Assembly: GCA_963922205.1 (NCBI GenBank)
Contig: CAWUHX010000358.1
Coordinates: 186,001 to 250,000, forward strand
DNA from: Romanomermis culicivorax
Taxonomy: Eukaryota > Nematoda > Enoplea > Mermithida > Mermithidae
Length of the DNA: 64,000 bases
Direction: 5' to 3'
Shown here: one piece after another, positions 9,558 to 61,043 of the stretch
How positions within the stretch are numbered: position 1 is the first letter of the stretch
Layout of the letters: every line of letters begins with the position of its first letter
Notes under the pieces: generated by a model
What the model was told of the DNA's origin: nothing
The model's database searches: none
What the model saw: the letters and a program-made list of their open reading frames with translations, nothing else
Position numbers and translations under genes: made by a program

Positions 9558-12500
9558 TGAACAAGCTGAAGAAATTCGGCACGGTTAGTAGTCAAATCGA
9601 AAATGAAGTTGGTCAACAAATACGTGAGTATATCTCTTATTTTGTGATTTCCTCGAACTTATCATGACGTTCTTTTTCTAGTGTGCGGCGTATGCAACAG
9701 ATGGGTTTACGGTTTGTGTTTCAAGCACCCTCTGATTTTCATAAAAGAAGAAGTAAGATGAAGTTTTCACACCTCCAACATCTATTGATGAGCTTCTCAC
9801 GCTCAGATTCCTCAAAGCCTACCCTACACAGTTTTCGAAACTATGCCCAAATTCCTGAACTTGAGGGAATCTAGAATACGGAATGCCGGTTACGGCATCT
9901 TCAGCAAAATTGATTTGCCAAGCGGTCTTGCGTTTGGGCCATATTCGGTGAACAATTTTTCGGTCTTTTTTCTTTTCTTTTCTTTTCTTTTCTTTTCTTT
10001 TCTTTTCTTTTCTTTTCTTTTCTTTTCTTTTCTTTTCTTTTCTTTTCTTTTCTTTTCTTTTCTTTTCTTTTCTTTTCTTTTCTTTTCTTTTCTTTTCTTT
10101 TCTTTTCTTTTCTTTTCTTTTCTTTTCTTTTCTTTTCTTTTCTTTTCTTTTCTTTTCTTTTCTTTTCTTTTCTTTTCTTTTCTTTTCTTTTCTTTTCTTT
10201 TCTTTTCTTTTCTTTTCTTTTCTTTTCTTTTCTTTTCTTTTCTTTTCTTTTCTTTTCTTTTCTTTTCTTTTCTTTTCTTTTCTTTTCTTTTCTTTTCTTT
10301 TCTTTTCTTTTCTTTTCTTTTCTTTTCTTTTCTTTTCTTTTCTTTTCTTTTCTTTTCTTTTCTTTTCTTTTCTTTTCTTTTCTTTTCTTTTCTTTTCTTT
10401 TCTTTTCTTTTCTTTTCTTTTCTTTTCTTTTCTTTTCTTTTCTTTTCTTTTCTTTTCTTTTCTTTTCTTTTCTTTTCTTTTCTTTTCTTTTCTTTTCTTT
10501 TCTTTTCTTTTCTTTTCTTTTCTTTTCTTTTCTTTTCTTTTCTTTTCTTTTCTTTTCTTTTCTTTTCTTTTCTTTTCTTTTCTTTTCTTTTCTTTTCTTT
10601 TCTTTTCTTTTCTTTTCTTTTCTTTTCTTTTCTTTTCTTTTCTTTTCTTTTCTTTTCTTTTCTTTTCTTTTCTTTTCTTTTCTTTTCTTTTCTTTTCTTT
10701 TCTTTTCTTTTCTTTTCTTTTCTTTTCTTTTCTTTTCTTTTCTTTTCTTTTCTTTTCTTTTCTTTTCTTTTCTTTTCTTTTCTTTTCTTTTCTTTTCTTT
10801 TCTTTTCTTTTCTTTTCTTTTCTTTTCTTTTCTTTTCTTTTCTTTTCTTTTCTTTTCTTTTCTTTTCTTTTCTTTTCTTTTCTTTTCTTTTCTTTTCTTT
10901 TCTTTCTTCAATAAGTTTTTATTTAATTTTAATCAAATTTAATAAGTTTGATTTTAATATATTCATCTAATTTTACTCTTTTGATAATTTTTATAATAAT
11001 TAACATAACTTCTTTTCATCTTAAATTTTTCCAACTTCAGGGATATTTATCGAAACTCAAATTAGTCGAAATGACCGGATACTCTTGGTGGGTAAGGAAT
11101 TGAAAAATATCTTATAATATCACCTCCTCATCATTCCGCCCAGATTCCATTTTCTAAAGACGACTCTATCTACATCGATGCTGTTGAAAATATGTATTCA
11201 AACTGGATGAGATATGTTAATTGCGCGAGATGTTAGTGCGATATAAAGAGAAAATAACTTGCAGAATTTTACATTTGTCTGTTTGGTTTTCAGTCGAACA
11301 TGAACAAAATATGATCGGCTTACCGTATAATCAAGGACTTTATTACTGTACATACAAGCCAATTGCTGCCGGTTCGGAATTACTAGGTATGTTGAAAATG
11401 ACGTAGGAGAGAGTTATTTTCTAGCTTAGGCAGAATACTATGGAAATTCATAGAAATACTCGTACTCAGAGATTCCCAAATTTGATTCTTCATACAGATC
11501 ATCGAATTCGAATTCGTTATATCTGAATCTCTCTCTCTCTCATTACGGGTGTATCCCCATTCCCCGAATGTCCCTTTTCCCCGAATGTCCCGATTCCCCG
11601 AAATCCCTATTCCCCGAAAGTCCCGTTTCCCCGTAGAACGCTATAAATCAAACACTGATTTTCCCTTTTCCCCGAACGTCCCGATTCCCCGAACGTGTCG
11701 AATCCCGTTTCCCCGAAAACAGAAGAAGGCTATTTTTAGATTGCACTTTGTAAATGGAAAATTTTTCCCTAGAAAATATTGTAAATTGTAGGTATGTTCC
11801 CACAGTTCAGAAATCCGAGGTATGTCCGAGTTGATCAACAACTATCCACAGCAAAACTAAACATTGTTCGGCAGAGAGCTTTAATGATCGGTGGTGATTT
11901 CAATCAAATTTTACCTGATATACAGTTGTTTTTACGCCGTGTCTCGTATTTGTTGGGATGATATCAGTGGCAAATAAATGACATACGAGGAAAACGATTT
12001 ATGGCTATATCTCATTCCCTGGGGTGGGGATTTACCAAAAAGTTCTTAGTATTATAAGCAATTTTTTAAAATCCAGTTCTTACTGTTCGAAAAACAGTTA
12101 AACTTCCAAAGAAGTTATATACTTCATTGTTTTCGGGGAATCGAGAATTTAATATTATTACCAATTTAGGGAATCAAGAATATTATTTCATTACTATTCG
12201 GGGAATCGGGACGTTCGGGGAATAGGTACTAATGCATTGTTCGGGGAAAAGGGAATTTTATTCATTATTCGGGGAATCGGGATCTTCCGGGAATAGGGAC
12301 TTTCGGGGAATCGGGACCTTAGGGGAATAAGGACACAATCCTTAGTACTACAGTTTTTTCTCGAAAAATTGAAATCTTTAGTGTACACCAGTGTTATTTT
12401 TTTATCCATTCGATCTATTTTCAATTCCCAGCTTCTTACGCCATAAAAGCGAAAATGTCGTCGTTTTTTCATCGCGTATACGGTAGTCTCGGTATGTTCC

Positions 12501-32939: not shown

Positions 32940-34534
32940 GGCGAAATCAATTGGAAATAGTTTATATGTAAGTTGAACCTTATGTAAAACGTTTTCCCAT
33001 GAAATGTGAATAAAGTGTTGCAAAAATATAGGTTTCAATGCACAAGATATCATCGAAAAATGCAAGAGCCACGCAAAAATATGCTAATTAAGTGCAGAAA
33101 TATGCCCTTCATTCTTTCTTAATTCACTATAAAAGCCTGGATTGATTGATTCTATTGATTTTTTCTAATATTTTTGTAGCAAAAAAACTATGAATAAAAT
33201 ATATTAGGACTTGGCAAAAAAATAGAATTTTCAAGAAAGATAGAACAATAACAATGGAATTTGGCCTTTACTTGAGTAACTTATCTAAGGGTTGTACTCT
33301 GGAATGTCTCTGGCTCATTGCTTTTTTTTATATATGGTTTAGCTGTGATAAAAGCCATGTGGCCTTCACATTTGTGGAATATCAGCATGGTGCTTTTATT
33401 CGAAAAGAATATTTGTGAATTTTTTGCATTTTCTGTTCATAAAAATTGAAAATAAGTACACCAAAATTAAGATTTTTTTTGTATATAAATGCCAAGTACG
33501 ACCCTGAATGAAAATAGTTTCTATTAAATGTTTTAAATTCAAATGCTACAGTGCTCAAAACTACAAACTAGCTCGCAACAAGTGGGCTACACGAGCTAGA
33601 AATTATTGAATTTCAACTATTATAGCAGGAAAACCACGTTTGGTATGATTCTTTTTGAAAAGCCAAAAATGATTAGGATTTGTGCTACTTTCGCACTTGA
33701 GCAACGTCAAATTTCCATGAACGCCAAATCTTCATGATATTCCATCCGATATTCCTGCGCCCCAAGATCATTTTAATTCATTTTTATAACAAATATGCTC
33801 AACAAAGTGAATGGATACGAGGGGAAAAATTTCTTACAAAATAAAAAACTTCTGAATTTAAATAGGTATCCTTGTGTGCTTTTACTTATTAGCATATTTT
33901 TGTGTTGCTCTTGCATTTTTTGATCCTCTTATAGCCAGAACATACTATCTGCATTTTTTCAAAAATGAGCTCTTCATGTCACATGCATTACCATAATGTC
34001 ATCTACCAACGCCAAAATGTTTTATATGCATATATACACTGTATGAACATATATACCTAGTTACATTATACTATGTGCATCAGTGAAAGCTTTTGCATGT
34101 GCCAAAAAGTGCTATATACCACATAGTATGTTTTGGTTCTGCATTTTTCTACAAAATCGTACTATAGTCTGTTTTTTATAAAATGCTACTAAAATGAAAA
34201 ATGACACAAATATTAGGTGACTTGAAAATCCGGCACATGAAGCTTTTACTGTAAATTTTTCCACTCAAAAAATTTCCAAGTGTTGACTGAGTTTCGTCAC
34301 TAAATTTAAGCTTCATATGACGTACAGCTTGGTAGAAAATGCCGAAAATGTAAAATAGTACTTGCTTTCCAGATTCATTATTTGGAAGCATTTTATAAAA
34401 AACAGATTATATATGGTAGATAGTACCTTTTGGTTCCAAGATTTTTTATTCTGGAGTACCAAATGATAAATACATTATGCTTTGAAATTAATGCATTATT
34501 GTGACTGTTGAAAAAGCATTTTATGAGTATCTTA
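32940..34534. other. Intergenic, nothing recognised
   Basis: AT-rich sequence without a credible exon. It contains scattered ATATGC/GCATAT words (33060-33110, 34020-34130) but no array or transposon ends that I can define. Confidence 0.4.
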
Positions 34535-34730
34535 CAGTATGATCACATATTGTGATGTGAAAGTACCATTGATGCATATGTTACAGTATGATCACATAAT
34601 ATGATGTGCAAGTATGAGTGATACATACCTTAGAGTATGATCTCATATTAATATGTGCAAGTATGAGTGATGCATACCTTACAGTATTATCATATAACAG
34701 GATGTGCAGGTACATTTCATGTATTGCATT
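34535..34730. repeat. 49-bp tandem repeat, 4 copies
   Basis: Units beginning CAGTATGATCACATA start at 34535, 34584, 34633 and 34682. The last is the most diverged. It lies directly upstream of the heat-shock-like elements. Confidence 0.75.
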
Positions 34731-40760: not shown

Positions 40761-43008
40761 TATATATGCTGGGGTTGCGATCGAAAGCCGGTTCCCACTC
40801 CGGGATGTGATTCATTCAATCAGTCAGACCCGCCCTTGGGTTACCATCAGTGCAGAACCACATGCATTTGTACAGCGCAGTGTGTGAAATGTCATCTAGT
40901 GTTTGAGTGTATTGGGCTAATAAGTCATTGACATCGAAGAATTTGGTGGCGGAACAGGGTGAGGCTGTGGCTGTAGTGAGCAGCATGGTAATCATCAACC
41001 TGTCGAGTCAGCTATTTTTGACCTGAAAAATACTAAGCAAGGTGTTAGGGAAATAATGATAATGAGTACCATGGTAGGTTCGATTTCAGAGCAGTTTGTC
41101 CGGCACCATGTGCTCTATCTAAACATCATCAATGTCGATGGGGAGTGTCATTTTTGATGTCTAAGCCAGTGCACCCTTCTGATTTGTATATCGGCGACAT
41201 GGGGAAACTGAGCCGTGCTATCAAACCACTTTTCATGGCCGAGGCAATGGCTTTCTTGAAAGTGTTTGGGATCATTGTAAACTTTCTTGGGCAAGAGCAA
41301 GAGATCTTCATTGTCTAAAACATCAGGTGATCAGTTCCATTTGTCACATTGCTTCTTTTTCTTCTTTTTAGGCATTTTAAGTATGGTCATAAACTTTGGG
41401 TGGGTCATGGGGGTCAACATTTTGATATCGCGGACACCGTTAGGTTGCTTGCCTAAACAGAAAGACTATCCATGGTCGGATGATGTGCAATCATACATAA
41501 AGAAATAATAGGCTGATAGAACTTCATCTCGCATATTTGCCGGTAAGGCAATTTGCGAGAGTGTGGAACAGATGACAGCATTCCAATCGGTGGGGACTAT
41601 GTTGGTTAACGGAACATTGTAGAAAGTGGTGATTATCGTTTTGTCAGCTGGTCGGTTTGGGAGGGATCCAACAAATGGTGCAGATAGAGAGATGCTGCAT
41701 TGTAAATTTCCCGGATAAAGCTGTTTCGGCCAAAAGCAAGGATCAGCAATATCCGATAAAAAGCATTGAGCACTGCATAGGCGAGGATATCGTGTTGTAA
41801 ATATGAATTCTTAGAATCTTTGAAAACCTGGGATGCATCGGGAAATTTGAGTGTGAGATGAGAAACATTAAGCACGCACATGGCAGAAATGGTGGCTTTC
41901 AGCATGCATTTTTCCGGCATAAATCTGATGCTCTGAGCCAGCTTGTAGAGGGGCGGAGAGATGGCCATATTGCGGTTGACTCCATAGGGGTGAAAGTTGA
42001 TGGTCTTTACTATGGCGTCTTTATTTTCCTTTTGGCAGTCAGTGCAGAATCGTGTTGGAAGGAGGGCATAAATTCCGCCCCAATTGTCCCCTCAATCGAA
42101 AGAGATCATGATGGTGTGTTTGCCATCAATAAGGGCAAAAAGGGTGTTCCAATCTTTGGGTGTCACTATGAAGGTTTTGAAAACAAACATGGTTCCTTTG
42201 GGGAGCCCAAGTTGAACATATCGAGGATAGCTGAAAGCATTTGAATCAGATGGCCTCAGGACTGCAAATTTGAAATTTTTCATAAAGCCAGTGAGAACGG
42301 ATTCCATATCGAAACAGAACAAGGTATATCCCAGGACATTTGGCATGGTCTGGGTGGTGAGCGCCACCATCAAACAACCAGGTGATAGGAAAATAGGGGG
42401 CCACAGTACATTGGGTGGCCACACAAACAGCAATATGAACCAGGGCTCTAGGCCCGCAATGGGGACCAATCTTTTTATGTTGTGTTATAAACAAAGAGCC
42501 AGTGCATTAAGGTACATAGGACAAAAGGGTTATGGGTGGTGGCAACAGTTGTGCCAGTCTGAAGGTTGACTTTTAATTTTACACCAAGAGAGAAGTTGGT
42601 TTTGCACCAAAATATTGAATGAGACGGTCCCCAGGATGGCTGCAACTTGGGTGGCGATGTCACTCAGATGGGCAGGTTTTGACAATTTTGATCGAATCAC
42701 TTGGGGGAGGCAACAAAAATTGTGGTACCATCCAGTCAAAGCAGCAGTCAACTATGGAGACCAGTTGGGCCATAGCTTGACGATTGAAAAATTGTGGCAG
42801 CTAACCATGGGTGTTTGGTGATGAGGGGGAGGTGAAGATATCCCATGGGGTCCCAAGTACAGGTCAGAGGGCACACACAGAGGAAGAAAAGCTGAAAAAA
42901 GTGCATGCAAAGAATAGAAATACCATTCACAACAAAAGCTAAGATCCTTTTGATGTGGCTGTTGTTCTCTCCAATGAACATAGCATTCACTGACATTGAA
43001 TGACTCAC
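40761..43008 (-). pseudogene. Old copy of the DEDDy exonuclease ORF
   Basis: Minus-strand pieces align to the young exonuclease region. A hydrophobic leader segment with WDPMG (about 43000-42850) comes first. Then come FDMES (motif I D-x-E kept, about 42310), YVQLGLPKGTMFVF, an SFD segment at motif II, ILAYAVLNAFYRILLILAFG (motif III, where the catalytic Asp has become Asn, about 41780), and ASPCSATKFFDVNDLL near the C-terminus. Stops separate the pieces. Loss of the motif III acid makes it inactive in any case. Confidence 0.75.
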
Positions 43009-47569: not shown

Positions 47570-47573
47570 GGAG
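47570..47573. other. 4-bp target duplication (left), GGAG
   Basis: GGAG immediately precedes the young 5' LTR; the same GGAG follows its 3' LTR at 61040-61043. Duplications of 4-6 bp are typical of LTR retrotransposon integration. It shows that the young element inserted as a unit into the old one. Confidence 0.8.
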
Positions 47574-48152
47574 TGTTGTAGTGTGTTTTCCGCCGATTTT
47601 TTATCGTTTTGTCAAAGCGCGTTAGAGGCCCTCAGGTGGCAAGTGGAGAGAGCAACGCGGACCACCAGTAGCCGTCTTACTGTAGCGCACGTCGGTACGC
47701 ATGCGCTGGTCTCTCTCAGTTACTATTATTAGTGTTATAATTTTTATGTTTTCTTACTAGTTGTGTGCCCCGTTGGCCACCGCTAGTACATACTCGCCGC
47801 CACCCACCACGCCTTTTTTGTCTCTCTCTTTCTCGCCCGTGCATGGGAGTTGATTTAGTGTTTTTATTTTTCGTCTCGCCTGTCTCCGTTTTGTTCACGT
47901 AAGTTTTGTACATTATTGCACAACATTAAAAGGTAGAAAATCCATCGCCTTTCAATCTTGCGCAACCAGGGAGACAATTAAAGAAAGTAGACCTTTCTTT
48001 AATTGTTGGGATAATTAGTGTTGGGGTTTAAGTACTAGTAATTAACTTATCGGGTAAACGTGGGCGTGGGAAGCACGTACATTAAGGACGCAACCTCGGA
48101 ATCCCAATCCTGCCCACGGTTCATCGCCCAGACCAGACAAACGAATACAACA
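47574..48152 (+). repeat. 5' LTR of the young element
   Basis: 579 bp, from TGTTGTAGTGTG to CGAATACAACA, so the ends form the inverted hexamer TGTTGT/ACAACA. It contains an AT-rich TTATAATTTTTATG block near the middle that could serve as the core promoter and a CATTAAAAGG block before a short hairpin (AAAGAAAGTAGACCTTTCTTT). Confidence 0.92.
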
Positions 48153-48153
48153 C

Positions 48154-48170
48154 TGGTGACCGCTTGGATT
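48154..48170 (+). other. Primer-binding site
   Basis: TGGTGACCGCTTGG begins one base after the LTR; TGG matches the CCA end of a tRNA. The old copy has nearly the same site next to its 5' LTR (63764-63778, inverted). I could not assign the tRNA. Confidence 0.75.
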
Positions 48171-48289
48171 GTACGTTGCCGCTCCCCGCCATTGCGTTGC
48201 ATCCGAAAAAACCCAAAGAGTCCAAAATTCGACCCCACGGTAGCTGCGCCAAAGGGTACAAAAGAGGTTATTATACCCTGCGAAAAAAG

Positions 48290-50644
48290 ATGCCAACGGT
48301 AAGCCACACACTGCCGGACTTCACCCGCTTTCGGTCGCTATCCAGTTCTCCGAACGCCGCCACAGCCGCACGCCGCGCCCTAAGTTTTGACCAAATGCTG
48401 TTGCCACGACCGTCAATTATTACGCAATCGACAGCGGTACCCAGGGTAAGCCTCCCGCCCCATAATCCGACTTTGTCTAATTTCAGTACTCCCGCGCTGG
48501 ACGGGACGGCACAACCGCAAGTACCGCTCATTCCCACAACCGCGGCGACGATCAATTCTCAACCCCTGCGGTCGCTAAATCAAAACCTTCTTACCGCCGC
48601 CGAAAATTGCCTTAACGCGCCGCCCGCACCGCAAATGCCGCCACCAAGTGCCCCGACCCGAAGTAACAATGACCAAGCTGTCGCCAGAACCGATTCCTCC
48701 AAATCCTTTGTCAATATCGAACCACCGCAAGCCCCAGCCGCCACCCGTGCTCCAGTAAACAATCACCGCAGCAGCCTAGCCATCGCAAACCCCAATGAAG
48801 TTCAAAATTTTCGAATTGAAGCACGTGACGCACTGGACCAACTCAACACCACCGCCGCGCGCATAACCAACAATGTTCCTACGGTACAAACGATTGATCA
48901 AATTATCGTCGTCGTCTCCGACCAATTCCAAGCCCAACAATTACGCGTCCAACGCGAAATCCAGGAACAAACCAAAGCCACTAACGCGCGTTTCGCCGCA
49001 CTCGCCGAGCAAATGGAACAATTGATTTCCACAACCGCCGCCGCAACTAATGCGCGCAATCCGCCTACACCAAGACCGCCGCCGGTGCCCGCACGGTTTC
49101 ACGGCGAGGAAACAAGAGATATTTATATCCCAAATGAAACTCTCCGTGAAACTGAACCGGCTCCAGTCTTTGGCAGGCTACCAAATCAAGTTAAACCTAA
49201 AGCACCGTCGACAGATACCCTGTACAATAACGAATTCGCCCGCACTACGCGCGCCGACGAAGATTTACACCGTTCCCCGCTTCAAAGACGCCCACCACCC
49301 GCGGCAAACCATTTCGGTTTCTCAGATTACCCACCAGAGGAATATTATGACCTTCCGCAACCTCGGTACGACATGCTGCGCACGTCTCATCGTGAGGAAG
49401 ATAGCCGCATCAAAACAATCGTCGACAACATGCACCCGTTGATTATCGACGGCGCCGCAACAAACAAACGCCTGTTACGCTTCTTCATCCACCTGGAAAA
49501 TGAGTTCGGCTACGACGCCTCAAATTACGTAAAGATGAGTGCCCTACGCCGACTCACCCGCGATACACCGAGCGATATGATCCAAGATATGACGCGGTAG
49601 GAAGACGCCAAACACTTACTTATGTTCCAGTTGGCTCCCGATTGCAACCCGATGACTCTCAAATGTGAACTCGCGTCAATCACCCCAGAAGCTGGAGAAG
49701 AACCCGCTGCGTTTCTGAGTAAGGTAATGACTTATGTACAATTATTGTATCAGCATGAAGATCAAACCTTTTGGCACAAACAAGTAATTGACACCTTTTT
49801 GACCAAAATGCCTGTTTTCTATCAACTAACAATTGGCGAACAAGCAAAAGGCTTCACGAATGTCCAACAATTGGCCGACGCCGTAGCTAAGGCCTGTAGT
49901 GTCCTCAATGCAACAAAAGCCGAAATCAGAACTGCGGAACGACCCATCCTTGTAAATCAAGCGGATCAGAACACACCACCACCGAAGTCGCCGCAACCAT
50001 TTAATTGCCGTTTCGAACGCCGCCGCAGTATGGACCGCCCCCAACACTGCTACCACGAGTGCTCTCCATCTATGGACCGCAGGCCTCAAAATTCGACACC
50101 ACCACCCACTAAATTCGTCTCCTTTCAACCACAAGCGATTGTGCTACCGCCGCCACAGCCCCCGCGCACGGAGATGCTATTGGAACAATTAATTCAGCGA
50201 TACGACCGCGACTATGAAGAACGAAAATCCCGACAATGCCCTGAAGAAATGATACCCAACAACAGGCAACAAAGTCCGCGCCATCAATCTCAAAGCAGAG
50301 AGCCGTATGCCAATCGCTTCGACCGATCTGCCAGCCGAGACCGCGCACGCACGACGCAACCTACAGGTTTTTGGTGCGACACCCACAAATCCCGCACCCA
50401 CAACACCGAAGACTGCCTCTGGCTCAAGCGGCAAAATGCTCAGCAACGGGCCGCGCTTTTCAAGACCTCTGCCACATCCGCTCGTCCGTTTGTCAAATCG
50501 ATAACCTTACGCTGTCCTCCAAATCCTTTGTCCGCAAGTACGCTTCCAGGAGAGCCTTTCAAATTCCAATCAAAATTGGAGCCGTTAAAGCACACGCCCT
50601 CATCGATACAGGTGCCCAATGCTCCGTCTTGTCATCAGGTCTAG
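48290..50644 (+). CDS. gag (one in-frame stop)
   Basis: Structural polyprotein. The first ATG is 48290, but the frame is open from the LTR edge and the upstream peptide ([12 protein letters not shown]) is shared with the old copy (RSCAQGYKTGFY), so translation may start earlier. Order: a Pro/Thr/Ala-rich N-terminal half, a coiled-coil-like stretch ([20 protein letters not shown]), a capsid-like helical region ([20 protein letters not shown] to ACSVLNA), an Arg/Pro/Gln-rich linker, and a zinc-knuckle-like C-x3-H-x4-H-x4-C at 50375-50416. An amber stop at 49598-49600 interrupts the frame before [10 protein letters not shown]; the old copy has a Tyr codon there, so it is either a nonsense mutation or, less likely, a readthrough site. 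The next ORF overlaps in the -1 frame. Confidence 0.85.
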
Positions 50645-50904
50645 TCAAACGCGCTTTCGACAAACAATCGCTCCAACTCCCGATTTGCGGAAAAATCAAA
50701 GTAGCCGACGGCGCCGTCGTCAACGCTCACGGCCCGGTGGTTGTCACGATGGAATCTGCGTTCGGAGAGCACATGATCAAATGCGTAATCCTCGACGATG
50801 ACGGAAACGACCAATGCATCATCGGAACCGACTTCCTTGCACACCCAGATATCCACGCCATTTTGAATTTTAAAGACAATTACATAGAAATTCAAGACGT
50901 TTAA
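50449..50904 (+). CDS. Retropepsin-type aspartic protease (start of pol)
   Basis: In the -1 frame relative to gag, overlapping its end, as expected for gag-pol expressed by frameshifting; the exact slip site is not identified. Catalytic motif [12 protein letters not shown] (about 50595-50630) and the C-terminal IIGTDFLAH typical of Ty3/gypsy proteases. It cleaves the polyproteins during particle maturation (family knowledge). The frame ends at TAA 50902-50904 and continues open in the same frame afterwards; the old copy has Lys at this place, so it is a copy-specific nonsense mutation. Confidence 0.85.
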
Positions 50905-53655
50905 CTGCCCCTCAAAGTAATCGCCTCGGTCCGCCCTGGAACGGAATTGTTTCTAAATGCCGCCAACGACAATGTCTTAGAGGAAATACCAGAGGACGAA
51001 CGAGTGAGTTTCTATGATGATAAATCCGATATTTTTAGCCAACCCGAAGAAATCGAAGTTGAACAACCGATACGGCAGGCTCAACCTAGTCCATACCAAC
51101 TGCCTTCTCGGCGGCTGGAGGTTACCGAGCTCGCCGAACCGATCTTTCTCGTCGCCCAAGCTTCCGTCTCGATTTCGCCACACTGCCAACAATGGGTCAA
51201 AAGTAGCGATTTTCCCACAACATCCGCGACCATGCCCGACGTGATCGTACAACCCCTCGCCACCGATAACGTAGCCGCAGAACTTCCAGTCAAAACCGCA
51301 GTGGTCAACATCACCAACTGTCATTGTCCGCTCCTCTTCATTAACAATATGCCAAACAGTATCAAACTCCGACCAAATCAGCTCATCGCGATGGCAAAGC
51401 ACACGCTAGAGTATTCCGAAACCCACGCCGACTGCCAGATAGCAACCGCTGCCGCCGACCGCGACTTAACTGATCACGAGCCGGCCGCACTAGATAAATC
51501 GGTCCCTGGCCACACCGCACAACAAAAGCTGGAATACGCCCTAAACAAAATGACCGAAAAAACTTACATTTCTGCCGCACAAAAAGCAAAAGCCCTCAAG
51601 ATGCTTCGACAGCACCGCGATGTCTTAAGCCTTCCCGGCGACAAACCAACTATAACCAGCGAATTGACCGTCAGTATCGACACCGGCACCGCAAAACCCG
51701 TTTCCCGCCATTATTACCGCGCCGCAATGGAGCAAAGACCGATTGTACGTCGCCATATCCAAGAAATGCTCGACAACGATTTTATCGAACCATCCCGCTC
51801 ACCCTGGGCTGCACCGCTGTTCTTGGTGAAGAAAAAAGATGGCTCATGGAGACCCGTTGTTGACTACCGCGGAATAAAGGACGTTACGCCAAGCGACAAA
51901 TTTCCGATCCCGCGCATTGACGATTATTTGGACGCAATGGGACACGCGAAATTCTTCACCACCCTCGACCTCAAAGCAGGGTACTGGCAGGTACCTCTCG
52001 ACGCTGACTCCCGCGATAAAACAACCTTCATCTGCCAAGAAGGTCTGTTTCGATTCAAAGTTTTGCCGTTCGGCTTGAAGAACGCGCCCGCCGAATTTCA
52101 ACGTCTAATGGAAAGAATTCTCCACCCGTATATTTGGAAGATTTGTCTCGTTTATATCGATGATATCATTATTTTCTCGAATTCGTTTGAAGAACATTTG
52201 GAACATTTACAAATCATTTTCGACGCCCTCCGCACAGCCAACCTTACGCTTCGGCCCGACAAGTGCGAATTCCTGCCCCCGCAAGTCAAGTTTTTGGGAC
52301 ACCTCCTTAGCACCTGCGGAATAGCAGCCGATCCGGAGAAAGTCAAAGCTATTGCCGATTATGAATTTCCGAAGACCAAAAAAGGTATGCAAAGTTTTTT
52401 AGGCTTAGTCCAATGGTGCAAACACTTTATCCCGAATTTGGCAACATTGTCCAGTCCTTTGTACGGACTTCTACGTAAAGAGGCTCAATATATCGCCACG
52501 GACGAACACCATGCCGCATTCGAAGGTATCAAAACCGCCCTTACGTCATCGCCCTTTCTTCGCTACCCAGTTTACAATGGCAAAGCGCAATTCGTTATAC
52601 AAACCGACGTCAGCACAACCGCCATCGGAGCAATTTTGTATCAAGAGAACGGAAACGATCAATGAGTCATCGCCTACAATAGCCGCATACTCACCGATGC
52701 CGAAACCCGCTACAGTACAACTGAGCGTGAATGCCTCGCCATTGTCTACGGCTTCCGGATGTACCGCCACTATGTGTACGGCCAAAAAGTTATTGTCCGC
52801 ACCGATCACAAGCCGCTTGTGTGGCTCAAAGACGAAAAACATCGAAACTCACCCATCCAACGTTTCGCGATCAGCCTCCAGGATTACGATTATAAAGTTG
52901 AATACGTTAAAGGAAAAGACAACGCTTGTGCCGATTTCCTATCCAGGAAGGACGACTGCGACAAATCCCCGATCCAGACCGCTGAAAATTTGACCGCCAT
53001 GATTTTCCGTGAGAATTTTCACTCTGCTGGTGCAACTACGGAAACCAACTTAACGGTACCGGAAATACGCCCAGCAGCAGCTTCACCACCCACGGAAGTC
53101 GACATCCAAATCGACGCCGTCACCCGGGCAATGACGAAAAAGACCATCAGTCAACCCACACTCTCTAATTCAATGCCTACAGCTGTCGACGACGAACCGC
53201 CCCCGGCCGAGGTCATTACGATCACCGCTCACGAGGAAGTTTTAAAAGCTCAAGCCGCAGACCCAGCCATAACAAAAATTATCGCCACCCTCAGAACAGA
53301 TAATGCCGCGAAACACCCACCGATTTTCTTCCTCGAAGACCAAATTTTGTATCGTCAACTTAAAGAGGTCAAACAATTAGTCGTACCCGCCTCCATGGTC
53401 GATCAAACTCTTCACCAATTCCACGGCCCGAAAATTTTGAATCATCAAGGAACAAACCCCATGCTAGCGGCAATTAAAGCTCACTTTTGGTGGCTCCGCA
53501 TGGAAGAAAACGTCCGTGATTGGATCAAGTCCTGCAAGATTTGCCAATTGACGACGCAGCGCACGTCACCGCCTCCACCACTGCTGCCAATTCAACCCAT
53601 TCACCCATTCGAAATCGTGGCAACCGACTTTCGTCAACATTTCGCCTGTAGGTGA
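50905..53655 (+). CDS. Reverse transcriptase, RNase H and integrase N-terminus (one in-frame stop)
   Basis: RT motifs in order: [53 protein letters not shown], the active site YIDD at 52153-52164, then FLGHLLS and [11 protein letters not shown] of the connection. RNase [42 protein letters not shown] and [17 protein letters not shown] at 52663-52665 interrupts RNase H; the frame is open again immediately. The integrase zinc domain follows ([11 protein letters not shown]...CKICQL, H-H-C-C) and the first catalytic Asp (VATDF, about 53625). A one-base frameshift near 53630 moves the rest of integrase into another frame, so this frame ends at 53655. Confidence 0.9.
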
Positions 53656-54511
53656 GAAATGCCCAGACATTATTGTTTTTCAGGATTACTTTACAAAATT
53701 CGTGTCCGCGCACCCTATACCAGATCAAAAAGCTTCGACAATAGTGGAATGCTTTATCAACAACGTTGTCCTCACGCACGGCAGCCCGCTTGTCCTCCTC
53801 TCCGACCAAGGTGGATGTTTTACATCAAAACTTATGCAAGACATATGCGAGCTTCTCAAAATCCGAAAGGTCAAAACGACGGCCTACCACCCCCAGTGCA
53901 ACAGAATGGTCGAACGTTTCAATCAAACATTGATCGCCCAGCTAAAAAAGTATACCGCCGACGATCCAGACAACTGGGAGTGCTACTTGCCCTACGTCGT
54001 GTTCGCCTACAACGCCACACCGCACACAGCTACCCACCATTCGCCCTTCAGTCTATTACGAGGATATGAACCACGCATCACCTTCGACTACGATTGCGCC
54101 CGCCGACTCACTCTGCCATTGAATTACGATGCCTATCAACATATCCTTATGCAAGCACAATTAAAAATGCACGAAAAAATTAAAGCTAACCTCGATGCCG
54201 CAGCCGCTGCCAGCAAAGAATATTTTGATCGCAAAGCCCGAAAACGCGAATTTGTCGTCAATGACTTAGTTCTTTTAACTAACACGCGCAAAGCCAACAA
54301 AATTCAACCCGACTTCATCGGACCTTTTCTCATCACGGACGCCTCCCACGCAGCTGAAAACGTTGTCACCATCGATTCACTCGATGCGCCCGGCCGTCCG
54401 CAAACTGTCTCCATAATGCGTCTAAAACCGTTTGTTCCACGACCCGCAAAGGACGCGTTCGAAAACGAAGAAGGTGGACCACGTATGCCCCACACTCCTC
54501 GCCGGCAATAG
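53635..54511 (+). CDS. Integrase core and C-terminal domain (frameshifted from pol)
   Basis: The frame is offset from RT by one base. The core reads [16 protein letters not shown], the second catalytic Asp in LLSDQGGCF and the Glu in [15 protein letters not shown], completing a D,D,E triad with the Asp in the previous frame. The C-terminal part has [14 protein letters not shown], the GPY/F module of Metaviridae integrases, then LKPFVPRP. There is no chromodomain. The frame ends at a TAG at 54509-54511. The enzyme joins cDNA to host DNA in the nucleus. Confidence 0.9.
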
Positions 54512-54594
54512 TTTGCTTTGAAAATTTTTCTCTTGTGATACGGCGCTCATCACGGCGCGTTGTAAATAATCTTTACGTTTGTTTAATTTAGATC

Positions 54595-54768
54595 ATGGCG
54601 ACCTCGTTGATGAGCAAGGATGCACGGCAGTTTCAAAACACTTCCTTTCGACCCCCGTTTCACAAGCACTCGGACGACTTTACCACATCACCTTACATCT
54701 TGCCCCGGTCCTCACGTATTAGGATAGGAGGGGGTTTCTTCTTTAATGTCAGGTTCTGTTCAGCGTGA
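54595..54768 (+). CDS. Short ORF between integrase and exonuclease
   Basis: A 57-codon frame from ATG, preceded by a splice-acceptor-like TTTAATTTAG (54583-54592). It encodes MATSLMSKDARQFQNTSF and a basic IL-rich end. The corresponding nucleotides in the old copy are partly conserved (ACATAGGAGG block near 43340). It could be a leader exon for the downstream ORF or non-coding. Confidence 0.25.
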   Translation: MATSLMSKDARQFQNTSFRPPFHKHSDDFTTSPYILPRSSRIRIGGGFFFNVRFCSA

Positions 54769-55019
54769 GGCCATTCCGTTTATTTCCGCCCGACCCTGGC
54801 TGCTATCACTCTCATAAGACTAATTGGGAAAGGTTGATTATAGTCCCCATTAACATAGTGGTGTTTGTGTTGCTTTTCCTAACGGTAGTGTTTGCATTTT
54901 CTTACTTTACGCTCTCTTCACCTTTCAGCGGCTTATTCTTTTACTATTTCATTTCCACTTTTCGCTATCATCCGCAATAGTCGTATTTTCCAGCTGCTCC
55001 TTAAAATTTATTTTTCAAA

Positions 55020-55453
55020 ATGACGACGCTGTCGACTGGATCCACCTCCACAGCTGACGAACCTCCGCCGTATCGTGAATCGATAAACATCAACGAACGA
55101 TACGTACGTTGGGCCGAGCAACAGCCCCACCAAAACGATCTAAGCTTCGCCTGCGACGGTATTTTTCTCACTTTTATGCTTTTGCTGCTTATTCCTGCAT
55201 GCTCTTTTCCTTGGGACCCCATGGGTAACCCCCCCACTCCGTAGTTTTGCGCCAAGGACCCATGGTCAGCCGCTGGGATCCCGCCATCGTCAAGTTGTGG
55301 CCTCCTCAGTCCGCAACCGGCCGCTGCTTTGATTTCCGCATACGACAACTCTCATTATCTCGCTATCGTAGCCCGATCCTGTTGTCCAAATGGGCCCATC
55401 AAGGTGACATCGCCGCCCAAGCCAACGCCTCCTCAGAGCATGTGTCCTCCTAA
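55020..55453 (+). CDS. N-terminal segment of the exonuclease ORF with a hydrophobic helix
   Basis: The frame from ATG 55020 encodes a polar start (SINERYVRWAEQQPHQND would follow from about residue 24) and a hydrophobic run CDGIFLTFMLLLLIPACSF (about residues 44-62), then WDPMGNPP and a stop at 55244. Similarity to the old copy continues in the next frame from 55247 (PMVS, IVKLWP, SKWAHQGDIAAQ), so a frameshift or an intron separates the pieces. The hydrophobic run might be a membrane anchor or a buried helix. There are no other envelope-like features (no furin site, no Cys pattern). Confidence 0.4.
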
Positions 55454-55530
55454 TGAATCGAAAGCAACACCGCGCCTCCCTCCTGGTTCACGTCTAAATC
55501 ATCCTTTAATTCCCATTTCGCACTTTCGAT

Positions 55531-57294
55531 TTGGTGCCCCATGTGTCACATGATGAATATCGCGCTCGCTCTTGTTTAGAAAACAACGTCAAATGCCTGA
55601 CTCGCGTCGCCGATTTGGAATCGTGGTACATATCCATGTACGCACGACCCCCGAATGTCTTGCCGCCACCAATATTTCTTTCACCCGGAAGTTTGGGGCA
55701 GGCCTTGGCCGCCCAACCCACACCAAACTTCCCTGGCTATATGCTGATCGGCTTCGACACCGAATCGATCATGGCCGCCAATATAAAGAACTTCCAGTTT
55801 ACCGTGCCCATGCCAGCCGACACCATGGCATCTAGCTACTCTCAATATGTTCAACTCGCATTCCCGAACGGCACGATGTTTGTCTTCGAAATGTTCACCG
55901 CTACCCCGGAAGACTGGACTGCGCTATTCTCCCTAGTCGACAGCGAACACACCATCGTAGTCTCCTTGGATGGAGCCGACGACTGGGCGGGAATATATGC
56001 TCTTCTGGGTACTTAATTCCGGACCGATCGGCAGAAGAAAAACAAAGATCCCGTCGTAAAAGCCATTCATTTCGACACGTACCGCGTTATTCGAAACATC
56101 GACATATCCCCGCCGCTGTACGAATTGGCGCGACGAATTGGCTTCTTCCCCGAAAAACGTACGCTAAAAGCAACCGTTTCCGCCATGTGGGCGCTGGACG
56201 TTTCAAAGCTCACGCTACGCTTCCCCGCAGCCCTGCGTTTCTTCAACAACCCGACGACGTCATTCCTGCAGTCCGACATCCTCGCCTACGCGGCTCTCGA
56301 CGCTTACTATCCGCTGCTATTGTTTTTGGCTTTTGGTTGCTACGGCTTCATCCCCGAGGTTTACAACGCCCCCGCGTTGTTTCCCCACGACTCGGGGGAT
56401 GCCGCCGAAATTGACCACCTCGCCGAATACGTCATCGCCACCTTTCACAACGTCGCGTTGTCGGATGCCTTGCCCCCCAACTACGCCAACCGAATATACC
56501 CGACGACATCGCAAGTCGCTTTCCCCGTGATTATGCGAGACGAAGTTCTTTCAGCTTACAAATTTTTCATGTATGATTGCACAGCGTCCGACCACGGTCG
56601 GTCTTTTTGTTTAGGAACGGTAACCAATGGCTTCCGGGACGTCAAAGTTTTGACGCGCACAACTCACCCGAAGCTTCTCCCCGTTCCGAAGGCGCCAAAG
56701 AAAAAGAAAAAGAAACAAAAAGACGAATGGAGCAAATCACCGGACGTTTCTGATGACGAAGATCCGGCTCTCAGACCACGATCCGTGTTCGATGATCCCA
56801 AACGCCTTCAAGCAACCGTCACGTCGGCCATGAGAAGCAATCTCACCGATCGGATCATCGAGTTGCTCAACTTTCCGCTTTCGCCGATATACAAGTTGGC
56901 CATTCGCGATCGTATGCCATACAACGACCCCAATTTACCGCCGCTTCCTCACGAGGTTGAAGATCTCTGGACAGAACGCGTTGCCGCCGATCAACCCCTG
57001 CGTGAGCGCACCTATTACGGTACTCATTATCGTTATCACCCCTCCACCATCCTTAATTTTTTACAGGTGGACGGAGACTGGTTCCGAAAGCTAACTTCTT
57101 TCATGCCGTTGGCCGCGCTTCTCGCGTCGCCGTGTTCTGCCGCAGAATATGCCTCCGTCAACGATGTACTTCTTCGCCATGCTCAATCAATGAAACCAGA
57201 AATACGCGCCGCGTTCTACGAGTGTATGTGGTATCGCAGCGATGGCAACCCCAACTCGCTCCTTACGAATTGGATGAACCGCATCCCGGAATGA
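55531..57294 (+). CDS. DEDDy 3'-5' exonuclease (WRN/RNase D/MUT-7 type) carried by the retrotransposon
   Basis: Motif I is MLIGFDTES with Asp-x-Glu at 55756-55764. A YVQLAFPNGTMFVFEMF strand follows, as in WRN and RNase D. Motif II is SLDGADDW with the likely Asp at 55978. A LYELARRIGF...VSAMWAL helical part comes next, then motif III LAYAALDAYYPLLLF with Tyr-x3-Asp (Asp at 56299-56301). All five DEDDy residues are present. Family members remove nucleotides from the 3' ends of DNA or RNA with two metal ions. After the domain come KKKKKKQKDEW (about 56700, a possible nuclear signal) and a conserved C-terminal part with ASPCSAAEYASVNDVLLRHA and ECMWYRSDGNP. A TAA at 56014-56016 lies between motifs II and III, and a TGA at 57292 separates the tail; the old copy has sense codons at both sites. 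The true start is unclear (no ATG near 55531). Confidence 0.8.
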
Positions 57295-58587
57295 GAACCG
57301 AGTTTCTCTAGCGATCCCGGCGCGTATATTTGCAATCGGTTTGCATTACGCCCGATTGTGTTCAACGAAGACTTCCACATGGAAACGTCCGTCGAAGAAA
57401 TCGAAATCGACGAACACGACTATACGGCCAACCCGCACAGCCATTTCCATTTTTACTCATCGTTTATTGCGCTCATCGATTTTCAAAACCGTTTTTCGTT
57501 CCCCGCGCCGGTGTACGCGTACCCCATGCCGACTACGGCTTCGGTGCAAACGCTCACCGCCGAGGAACTACTCGAACGCCCCATCGATGTCGAAGTCGAA
57601 CCCGCCGATGACGAGCTACTTGATACGCCAGTTTTCGATCTCAACATAGCGAACCTGCCGCCGTCAACAGACGCGTCGGCCCTTCCTATGTCCGCTGCAC
57701 CAACTGATATCACGGCAACTGCTACGCAAATTTCCGATTTCTTGAAACTCACGCTCGACGAAATTTCCAATATTGCTCCGGCTCCGATGGACGAATCTAC
57801 TCCCATCCAACCCACCGCAATTGATTCGGAAACGATGACGTCAGAACATATGTTGACCGATATACCTGAAGAAAGCACGGTGGATCAATCCACGTCTATG
57901 GACGTCGCCCTCATAGAACCAGCCGCTACGATACCGACCATGGCACCCGCCGTGGACCCACGAATATATTTGGCGACACCGGCAGTTTTGCCAGGACCTC
58001 CGATAATTGCCACCATTGCAGCAGCCAGGTATAGTGCACCCGTACGTTTCTCGCAACAGATTATTTCAGCTACTCAATGGGACGCCTTGGCCGCAGCGTA
58101 TCATTTCCCGCCGCCACCGCCGGGAATGCTATTCCCTGAACATCAGTGGAAAGATTTCCCAGCAGCGCTAAAGGACGAGATACAACGAATCTTGTTGCCC
58201 CCACCGACGTTGATCGCCCCGGCCCCGCAAGTTGCCCAAACGGCCCCGGTAATGGTACAACCCGTCGTGCAAACACCTGCTCCCTTACCGCCGCCGGTCA
58301 CATCGCAACCGGAACCGATGCCGCAACCGCCGCAACCCGCGACTCTAGTGCCGCAGACGGCGCCTGTGGATGTTCAAACCCCACAGGCACCCAGCAAGTC
58401 TGTGCCGGCTCTAGATCGCTATGGTAATCCTATCCGAAGACCCGGCCGGTATGAACACTCAACAAAGCGAAAACAACATCTTCAGGAAGAATCGGCGTAC
58501 CGCAAATCCCACAAAACACGAACAACGGACGAACCGAGCACCCAGCGTACGCCGCCACCCAGCACTTCGCGTGCTGAGCTCTCGTGA
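57295..58587 (+). CDS. Proline-rich tail in frame with the exonuclease (ORF B)
   Basis: The same frame as the exonuclease, open directly after the TGA at 57292, and continuous with it in the old copy, so the two were probably one protein. It begins [16 protein letters not shown] and carries an acidic part ([24 protein letters not shown]), then a long Pro/Ala/Thr/Gln-rich region with [16 protein letters not shown] and [15 protein letters not shown], and a basic end ([12 protein letters not shown]). It appears mostly disordered. It is conserved between the two copies but matches nothing I know. Its end overlaps ORF C by about 167 bases. Confidence 0.6.
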
Positions 58588-60046
58588 TGATCGCCACCGT
58601 AGAGAAACAAAACAGACTCCACCAACCAGCCGGGATAGTCGTCAACACGAACGCCACAATGATGTACTGCCGCACCGCACTCAAAGCAAACAAACACGCA
58701 AGGTACATTCGACCGGTTTCTACAAAGAGGCACATCGCCACCAGTTCCGCCGGTCACCGCCCAAGTTGATGGACTTTATTAGCCCGTTGCATAGGGACGC
58801 TGAGATCCAATGTCATCTGGAAGCCTTGAAAAACCCGCCGAAAGAGGAGTTCAAAGTCCTGCTTCCACCGCCTCCTATGGACGTGGATGCCGCAACGTTG
58901 ACTACCACCACGATTCCGCCAATGGTTACATCGCAACCGACTGCAGTTCAGACAACTGCTGCTACGACTACGGTAACCCACACCACGTCGCTGCCGCCTA
59001 CGGCCCCGACGTCGGCTCCGGTTGCTGCATTCAAACAGCCGCCCGTGATCATCGCCCATAGGCCGGTTCTTGGAGCTCCTCCGCCACCAAGCCCCGCACC
59101 AACTATCAAACCCCGGTTGCCTAGCGAAGCCACGCGATTACCAAATTATACACGCTTCCGAACCACCGATACGCCCCATTGCATTACGCTAGTAACACCA
59201 GGCTACCCGCCGAATATCGATCCCGCCGTCAAGTTTTTCTCGCCATGCACACTACACGAAATGGTATTGATCAACTTCTTCGGCCGCCTCGGCATTCGCA
59301 TCATCATGCCCGTGCACATCCGTGCTACGAACGCTTCGCTGGCGTTGTACCAATATTTTCGAGATCATTACCGCCCCGCATATCAAGAACAACAACCGCC
59401 AATCTCGCACGACGTGGCCACTCTGATATTGAAATGGGTCGCGGGCCTTTGGGCTGAGGAGCTCGGCGTCATTGACGCTGTTCACACCGCCCACTTGACC
59501 CTTTTCCTATATGAAGCCCGCGGTTTGGATAACCCTTCGTGTCTGCTACAAGCCTATAACACCGCTGTCGGACTCATAGACAGTTGGATGGCTTATCCGC
59601 GCTACGCCCCGTTTCCACAACCGCTGGAAATCGCCGACATTCAACAAATCTATCTGCAGTATCACAGCGAGACGGATCGCCCCGCACCCGCGCTGCGTCA
59701 GCACGACTTTTCTGCCCGGTGGAATCTATTGCCACCGCGACCGTTGCCGCCAACAGGGTTGCCGTCCGATCGCCCGTCACTAATCACCACTCAACTGCCA
59801 GCCCGAGGCGTGAACCCGCTCTCGCTGCTTCAAACTCAAACGTATACCTCGTCTTCGCGCCGCCGCGATACCGCTGATTACGGTCGATCCCGCTACTCCC
59901 GTAATATCCATTTTGATGGCCACGACGACCCTCGCGATCCACATGGCTACCATAACGATCGATACCGAAGAAACGAACGCGATCGCCGCGACTCCCCTCC
60001 AAACTACCGCTCCACATCCGATAATCGCCACCGACGCCGCCATTAA
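58421..60046 (+). CDS. Unrecognised last ORF of the element (ORF C)
   Basis: 541 codons, in the +1 frame relative to ORF B with an overlap, so it could be a frameshift extension or a separate protein. Its N-terminal part is Arg/His/Thr-rich. The middle has PPPMDVDA and a Pro/Thr linker. From about residue 245 there is a compact helical-looking domain: [74 protein letters not shown]. The C-terminus is Arg/Asp/Tyr-rich ([20 protein letters not shown]), like an RNA-binding tail. The same order is seen in the old copy (37803-39460). It resembles a capsid plus nucleic-acid-binding tail in general design only; the function is unknown. It is intact in this copy. Confidence 0.65.
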
Positions 60047-60447
60047 AACAAAGCTTTTTGTACAGTAACTTTGTTTTCTTCGTTTTGTTTGTTTTTCTTA
60101 CCCTCATTTCAAACCGGTTGTTTAATTTCTAATCTCGTTCATGCTTTATATTTTTGTACTAGTGTTTCCAGCGCACGTGCAGCCGACGCTGCAACCACAC
60201 AGTAAGTTGACCGCTGGTGGCCCGCTATACGCCCCCACTTGCACCGCTTTGTCCTTGCCTTCGCCGCTGGACGCACTATTGTCGCCGCCCCAAAAATTGG
60301 CTCAAACTACCCCAACAACTCCGCCGGCCCCGCTGTTTGACGCCGAAGAATCCTTCGGCAACCCCGGCGACGGCCTGTAATGGCGGAGCCCTTCCCCTTG
60401 CATGTTTTTTCGGTATTTCTTGACGATCGCTTAGGGTGATCTACTGC
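60047..60447 (+). other. Spacer before the polypurine tract
   Basis: A short frame at 60141-60380 (Pro/Leu-rich, ending DAEESFGNPGDGL) is of doubtful coding value. The stretch GATCGCTTAGGGTGATCTAC just before the polypurine tract is well conserved in the old copy, suggesting a role in replication or packaging. Confidence 0.4.
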
Positions 60448-60460
60448 AAGGGGGGAGGGG
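60448..60460 (+). other. Polypurine tract of the young element
   Basis: AAGGGGGGAGGGG lies directly upstream of the 3' LTR. It is the RNase-H-resistant primer for plus-strand synthesis. Confidence 0.9.
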
Positions 60461-61039
60461 TATTATAGTGTGTTTTCTGCTGATTTTTTATCGTTTTGTC
60501 GAAGCGTGTTAGAGGCCCGCAGGTGGCAAGTGGAGAGAGCAACGCGGACCACCAGTAGCCGTCTTACTGTAGCGCACGTCGGTACGCGTGCGCTGGTCTC
60601 TCTCAGTTACTATTATTAGTGTTATAATTTTTATGTTTTCTTACTAGTTGTGTGCCCCGTTGGCCACTGCTAGTACATACTCGCCGCCTCCCACCACGCC
60701 TTTTTCGTCTCTCTCTTTCTCGCCCATGCGTGGGAGTTGATTTAGTGTTTTTATTTTTCGTCTCGCCCGTCTCCGTTTTGTTCACGTATGTTTTGTACAT
60801 TATTGCGTAACATTAAAAGGTAGAAAATCCATTGCCTTTCAATCTTGCGCAACCAGGGAGACAATTAAAGAAAGTAGACCTTTCTTTAATTGTTGGGATA
60901 ATTAGTGTTGGGGTTTAAGTACTAGTAATTAACTTATCGGGTAAACGTGGGCGTGGGAAGCACGTACATCAAGGACGCAACCTCGGAATTCCAATCCTGC
61001 CCACGGTTCATCGCCCCGACCAGACAAACGAATACAACA
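60461..61039 (+). repeat. 3' LTR of the young element
   Basis: 579 bp, the same length as the 5' LTR, with about 21 differences by eye. It begins TATTATAGTGTG where the 5' copy has TGTTGTAGTGTG, so the canonical TG is lost here. It ends CGAATACAACA and is followed by GGAG (61040-61043). Confidence 0.92.
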
Positions 61040-61043
61040 GGAG

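Follow-up and report, generated by a model that had tools for sequence, protein, structure and literature searches.

In bdelloid rotifers, the long terminal repeat (LTR) retrotransposons Juno and Vesta carry, after pol, third open reading frames (ORF3s) for a DEDDy exonuclease, and these are reported to be shared with Penelope-like elements (Rodriguez, Kenefick and Arkhipova 2017, PMC5408684). Comparable cases are the Terminons, giant Penelope-like retroelements of rotifers that likewise carry an accessory DEDDy exonuclease and, unlike the element described below, are not LTR elements (PMC6431247), and the Dada DNA transposons, which also have a DEDDy domain, but inside the DDE transposase (PMC3706591). 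Among LTR transposons, a DnaQ-like exonuclease is described as a familiar accessory domain (PMC6338049), and the DEDDy enzyme MUT-7 is described as acting in silencing (PMC5408684). Here we analysed a window of 64,000 nucleotides (the whole stretch of DNA considered) from the mermithid nematode Romanomermis culicivorax, which contains a 13.5-kb Ty3/gypsy element (47574-61039); we think it fairly likely that this is an abundant element whose spliced ORF3 has at its start a 3'-5' exonuclease domain of diverged DEDDy type. The position of ORF3, its conserved splice sites, the selection on its frame, and the DEDDy homology and catalytic residues of its domain come directly out of the computation.

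The element resembles Juno and Vesta in its LTRs, in a pol that encodes protease, reverse transcriptase (RT), RNase H and integrase in this order, and in a DEDDy ORF placed third, after pol; in both hosts several lineages of one genome carry such an ORF, and expression of the ORF3s is attributed to spliced messages (PMC5408684). The preliminary description of this locus, which knew of no Ty3/gypsy lineage with the domain, had overlooked these bdelloid LTR elements. The differences are a nematode host, a large ORF3 that includes long additional regions, copies that probably number in the thousands, and catalytic residues that read DEDD here and DEED there, a comparison made by description and not by sequence (PMC5408684). 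Purifying selection acts on the DEDDy ORF3 here, whereas the variation analysis published for the rotifers, which detected no departure from neutrality, covered the env-like and GDSL-like ORF3s and not the DEDDy ones (PMC5408684). No Pfam match to a dUTPase, which in Juno and Vesta lies between protease and RT, was obtained in the frames 50245-50901 and 50905-52662. A report of a nematode LTR element with a DEDDy ORF was not found in the literature searched, a scope that excluded most subscription papers and Repbase.

ORF3, its reading frame and its abundance

As the preliminary description stated, the DEDDy signature residues follow one another in the right order between the LTRs, on the 3' side of integrase: FDTES (Asp codon 55756, Glu codon 55762), DGADDW (Asp codons 55978 and 55981) and YAALD (Tyr codon 56287, Asp codon 56299), and QLAFPNGTMFVF is also present in the domain. 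The ExoI DxE, the ExoII Asp and the ExoIII YxxxD that define the DEDDy motif pattern are thus all found, in the expected succession. Across 21 copies (the window copy and 20 fetched ones) the first Asp is retained in 21/21, the Glu in 19/21, each member of the adjacent Asp pair in 20/21, the Tyr in 21/21 and the last Asp in 19/21. The interval 55531-57294 had been taken as a single ORF, which does not hold for the window copy, where an in-frame stop (56014-56016) and later frame changes break exon 2 and about 200 bp near 58579 are missing; other copies are open where the window copy has this stop, and the missing segment is present in 20/20 fetched copies.

ORF3 begins about 500 bp from pol, and its product probably comes from a spliced mRNA and is separate from gag-pol. 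The start codon of the predicted exon 1 and both intron boundaries are kept throughout the 21 copies (Table 1), as is TTCCAG, a possible splice acceptor upstream of ORF3 whose last base is 54993 (21/21), and two UniProt gene models (P0001 and P0016) join exon 1 to exon 2. From exon 2 of the window, the missing 200 bp or so and exon 1, the protein is estimated at about 1,600 residues; stop-to-stop frames elsewhere are longer or shorter because they may take in the intron or end at damage. One piece of ORF3 (UniProt A0A915K5M7, P0003) is named "DNA-directed DNA polymerase", probably an automatic misnomer.

ORF3 is under purifying selection: the ratio of nonsynonymous to synonymous substitution rates (dN/dS) in the 21 copies is about 0.25 in the frame of the exonuclease domain, whereas the two alternative frames give 0.96 and 1.39; these values come from 210 non-independent copy pairs and are read as a contrast between frames, with no significance test. 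Exon 1 gives 0.18, the predicted intron 0.64-0.83 across its three frames, and exon 2 (55582-58569) 0.17-0.41 along its length.

The genome searched has 359,112,060 bases (the long-read assembly of R. culicivorax is given as 359 Mb, PMC10879605). With one natural domain of the present element family (family A) as query it yielded 3,456 first-look candidates, and the best 121 of these were scored. These best matches, which are not a random sample, are all 92-100% identical, so that the domain does recur in other copies, as the preliminary description had supposed; six contain an internal stop, and the stop-to-stop frames around the domain reach at least 1,500 amino acids in 75 (up to 1,799) and at least 1,000 in 96. 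Family A probably counts thousands of copies, an estimate taken from the first-look candidates alone. No relative outside R. culicivorax appeared among 80 proteins, among 120 listed of 135, or as the one further protein (about 8,000 candidates were scored for each of the last two lists).

Relationship of the domain to DEDDy exonucleases

Cellular DEDDy exonucleases (RNase D, NrnC, WRN, EXD2, MUT-7; PF01612) share with ORF3 the catalytic residues and the order of the blocks, and WRN has GDQW around its ExoII Asp; ORF3 differs in having longer loops, one behind the first strand and one behind the ExoII helix, and insertions lie at about these two places in a second family of the same genome, family B. 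The evidence for homology comes from a mixed hidden Markov model (HMM) built from eight solved DEDDy chains and six family-B ORFs, without any family-A ORF3. It scored the natural family-A domains of alignment A2 at 10.1-20.0 bits in 15/15, while 15,000 shuffles did not exceed 7.8, and in this respect the DEDDy-type domain of the preliminary description stands. Alignment A2 comprises the 15 of 20 fetched copies with a usable open frame over the domain and omits L011, L019, L020, L021 and L026, whose frames are cut. Among 275 ORFs of at least 150 amino acids, taken from the window and from the loci, which in part overlap, all those above 1.5 bits include an exonuclease piece, and the two pieces of the window copy scored 8.3 and 4.2. 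The four alignments printed in full are collinear from one end of the domain to the other and place D, E, D, Y and D at the catalytic positions; in L012 the DxE reads DTK and the first block is unaligned.

The genome holds two more families of exonuclease ORFs downstream of integrase, and PF01612 had 119 matches over the whole genome. Both are known here from their exonuclease ORF and the upstream integrase frame alone. Family B (at the centre of each of loci L030-L059) has an exonuclease ORF of about 609 amino acids downstream of an integrase-like frame and passes the Pfam cut-off (PF01612: L039, 1.5e-10; 454-amino-acid frame of L030, 1.7e-13), with DxE, ExoII Asp and YxxxD in 6/6 aligned members. 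Its upstream frame matches rve at 1.8e-6 in L043 (28.6 bits, below the cut-off of 32.6) and rve_3 at 0.038 in L031, and no integrase model in L037; that of L043 is 34% identical to the family-A integrase over 253 amino acids (6e-44). The search for family B gave 344 first-look candidates and 76 matches, 11 of which span residues 1-609 without a stop. Family C (L060, 1-462, minus strand; L061, 868-1101, minus strand) has frames of about 1,398 amino acids and is related to family-A ORF3 by blastp at 5e-6 over 154 amino acids. With PF01612, whose cut-off is 23.6 bits, its C298 copy reaches 19.7, and with the mixed HMM 20.3; copy C17:1817048 was counted over the PF01612 cut-off together with its neighbours, and the piece read has the ExoII Asp and the ExoIII Tyr-Asp pair. 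Upstream in C298, the one copy looked at, lies an integrase C-terminus with the GPF module, 50% identical to that of family A over 38 amino acids (3e-8). All 150 family-C candidates scored, from 2,162 at first look, are at least 86% identical, and the 97-99% identity of the domain in many copies suggests a recent spread.

Several results weigh against this assignment. Pfam scans of family A gave no match over the cut-off, PF01612 included, and NCBIfam and PHROGs scans gave no exonuclease model. The PF01612 match to which the preliminary description had looked therefore failed for family A taken alone, with a best E-value of 0.092 in 1/37 proteins and of 0.21 in 1/15, the latter covering ExoIII only; DUF4350 did better in Pfam (best 0.0087, 9/15). 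The mixed HMM was the fourth tried, with E-values uncorrected for this, and several whole or partial family-A ORFs scored 2.6-7.6 bits with it, under the best shuffle. Of the other models, one of five RNase D-like chains gave family A 2.2-7.7 bits against up to 7.0 in 5,000 shuffles, one of eight chains (including WRN and EXD2) gave 4.2-11.3 bits against 15,000 shuffles with a best of 9.8 and a next of 6.9, and one of family B alone gave -2.8 to 4.6 bits, without a shuffle control. Structure prediction was carried out, and its two AlphaFold models were poor (pLDDT 46 and 59); no DEDDy chain was among the matches listed by Foldseek or VIA. The catalytic codons (19-21/21) are no better kept than the average codon (mean 0.94), and most of the family-C copies listed are below the Pfam cut-off. 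A profile search of solved structures with alignment A1 or A2 returned one unrelated weak match each (E 2.3 and 0.83), and when A2 was compared, profile to profile, with only E. coli RNase D, the probability was 2% and the alignment was out of register with the motifs. The DUF4350 match, like that to phrog_5899 (best 0.0086, 8/15), was set aside as a chance match; in the rows with coordinates shown, neither covers the DxE block.

On these grounds family A is, as judged from its sequence, a diverged DEDDy-type homologue, and it is not filed under PF01612 because it falls below the gathering cut-off, which is an annotation rule and not a biological feature. Its link to the DEDDy enzymes is drawn from the mixed HMM together with families B and C, which share its genome, family C being, by its sequence, the bridge. 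A small tree of the domain separates A and B from the cellular enzymes on long branches, with a support (89.8/80) that is taken as weak. The two additional loops of family A and those of family B fall at roughly matching points of the domain, which, with the tree, is compatible with one capture without proving it.

The element and its surroundings

The Ty3/gypsy identity proposed in the preliminary description is borne out by LTRs, a target duplication, a polypurine tract, the order of the pol domains and an RT whose closest relative among solved structures is that of Ty3 (1e-71). The coordinates are collected in Table 1. Of the 21 differences between the two LTRs, 17 are transitions, and the 4-bp duplication GGAG occupies 47570-47573 before the 5' LTR and 61040-61043 after the 3' LTR. 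The frame at 48086 starts within the 5' LTR, a Pfam scan of 49601-50641 gave no match to gag, and a knuckle read by eye at 50375-50416 has the form CX2HX4HX4C instead of CX2CX4HX4C. The GPF of the integrase lies at about 54320 (by eye and alignment).

Table 1. Features of the Ty3/gypsy element and of the older nested copy (window coordinates)
Feature	Position	Strand	Details
5' LTR	47574..48152	+	579 bp, TGTTGT...ACAACA; 21 differences from 3' LTR
gag region	48086..50641	+	broken into several frames in window copy; named from position and knuckle
Aspartic protease	50566..50835	+	PF13650 2.2e-8, PF13975 3.8e-8
Reverse transcriptase	51826..52302	+	PF00078 1.1e-38; Ty3 RT 4ol8 1e-71
RNase H	52666..52887	+	PF17917 3.9e-24; continuation of preceding frame
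Integrase (H2C2, core, GPF module)	53383..54511	+	PF17921 1.1e-15, PF00665 5.1e-8
ORF3 exon 1, predicted	55020..55158	+	46 codons + 1 base; ATG 21/21, donor GT 21/21
ORF3 intron, predicted	55159..55579	+	GT 21/21, AG 21/21
ORF3 exon 2	55580..60046	+	4,467 bp; broken in window copy
DEDDy exonuclease-like domain	55741..56322	+	HMM-aligned residues 55-248 of sequence beginning ENNVK
ORF3 middle region	56323..57294	+	contains KKKKKKQK, a run rich in lysine; Pfam matches not significant or absent
ORF3 Pro-rich part and Arg/Asp/Ser-rich tail	57295..60046	+	no Pfam match
Polypurine tract AAGGGGGGAGGGG	60448..60460	+	read from sequence
3' LTR	60461..61039	+	followed by GGAG
Exonuclease-like domain of older nested copy	41633..42484	-	two frame pieces

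The element is inserted within an older minus-strand copy of a related element (36769-63987), which it splits and whose LTR remnants are about 90% alike. The same domain had been ascribed to this older copy; it is indeed there, 55% and 58% identical to that of the window element in its two frame pieces, in a degraded state that retains FDMES and has YAVLN in place of YAxxD, the ExoIII Asp being replaced by Asn. Elsewhere in the window, 10001-12000 is strongly strand-biased (GC 0.286, GC skew -0.38, AT skew -0.53), and a 49-bp repeat occurs in four tandem copies at 34509-34704, 63-100% alike to the first.

Possible roles of the ORF3 product

We infer that the ORF3 domain would be catalytically active as a 3'-5' exonuclease dependent on metal ions. 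ORF3, a basic protein made separately, might act in trans on RNA 3' ends and either trim the RNA of the element or degrade RNAs of the silencing pathway; proofreading for the RT is the less favoured role. This is a guess, and a tentative one; a trans-acting accessory is favoured over a proofreading subunit because ORF3 is separate from pol, has a lysine-rich stretch and an Arg-rich tail, and shows no clear transmembrane segment in exon 2. Since R. culicivorax yielded neither Piwi-interacting RNAs (piRNAs) nor small RNAs with a 5' triphosphate (PMC4323106), the silencing target, if any, would be another class of small RNA.

It is conceivable, if somewhat doubtful, that the exonuclease works instead on the 3' ends of complementary DNA (cDNA) in the particle or pre-integration complex, by trimming, mismatch removal or the clean-up of integration intermediates, much as the DEDDy domain of Dada has been proposed to process 3' ends exposed in transposition (PMC3706591); ORF3, however, is unfused to RT or integrase, and its distance from pol and its conserved possible acceptor leave no anatomical guarantee of co-packaging with RT. 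We hold it to be rather improbable that the domain is catalytically dead or weak and serves RNA binding, for which EXD1 and Maelstrom offer a precedent (PMC5408684) and to which the strong divergence below the Pfam cut-off would be suited, because the five catalytic residues persist in nearly all family-A copies and the motifs recur in the aligned members of family B and in the family-C piece. That the likeness to DEDDy enzymes is a chance or convergent resemblance of short motifs seems very improbable: the single-sequence scores are weak, the structure models failed and only the fourth HMM separated cleanly, yet the alignment is collinear over the full domain, with shuffle and ORF controls, and family C provides a bridge. 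A functional replacement of env, in entry or exit, would fit the env-like position of ORF3, its probable expression by splicing and a hydrophobic stretch in exon 2, and is thought very unlikely on hydropathy. The peaks of the exon-2 frames are KD19 1.82 (L018) and 1.73 (L011), the former being the helix of the ExoIII block inside the exonuclease domain; the strongest stretch (KD19 2.47) is confined to that part of the frame which is predicted to be intron (L012 and L013), and there is no Pfam envelope match.

A wider and quite speculative scheme, which we consider improbable as a whole, would start from a single DEDDy exonuclease adapted to retroelements and recognisable by its additional loops at the same two places. 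An early Ty3/gypsy element in the mermithid lineage would have acquired it, selection would have maintained it in three or more descendant families that came to occupy much of the genome, and it would act in trans as a suppressor, removing small silencing RNAs in an animal without piRNAs. In the literature searched, LTR elements with a DEDDy module were previously those of bdelloid rotifers, and the nematodes are thus a second phylum. Its presence in this second phylum, in three families of one genome and in very many copies, with clear purifying selection in family A, argues that the module is of use to the elements, and raises the question whether the enzyme blunts a remaining small interfering RNA pathway of this nematode or processes the RNA or cDNA of the element.
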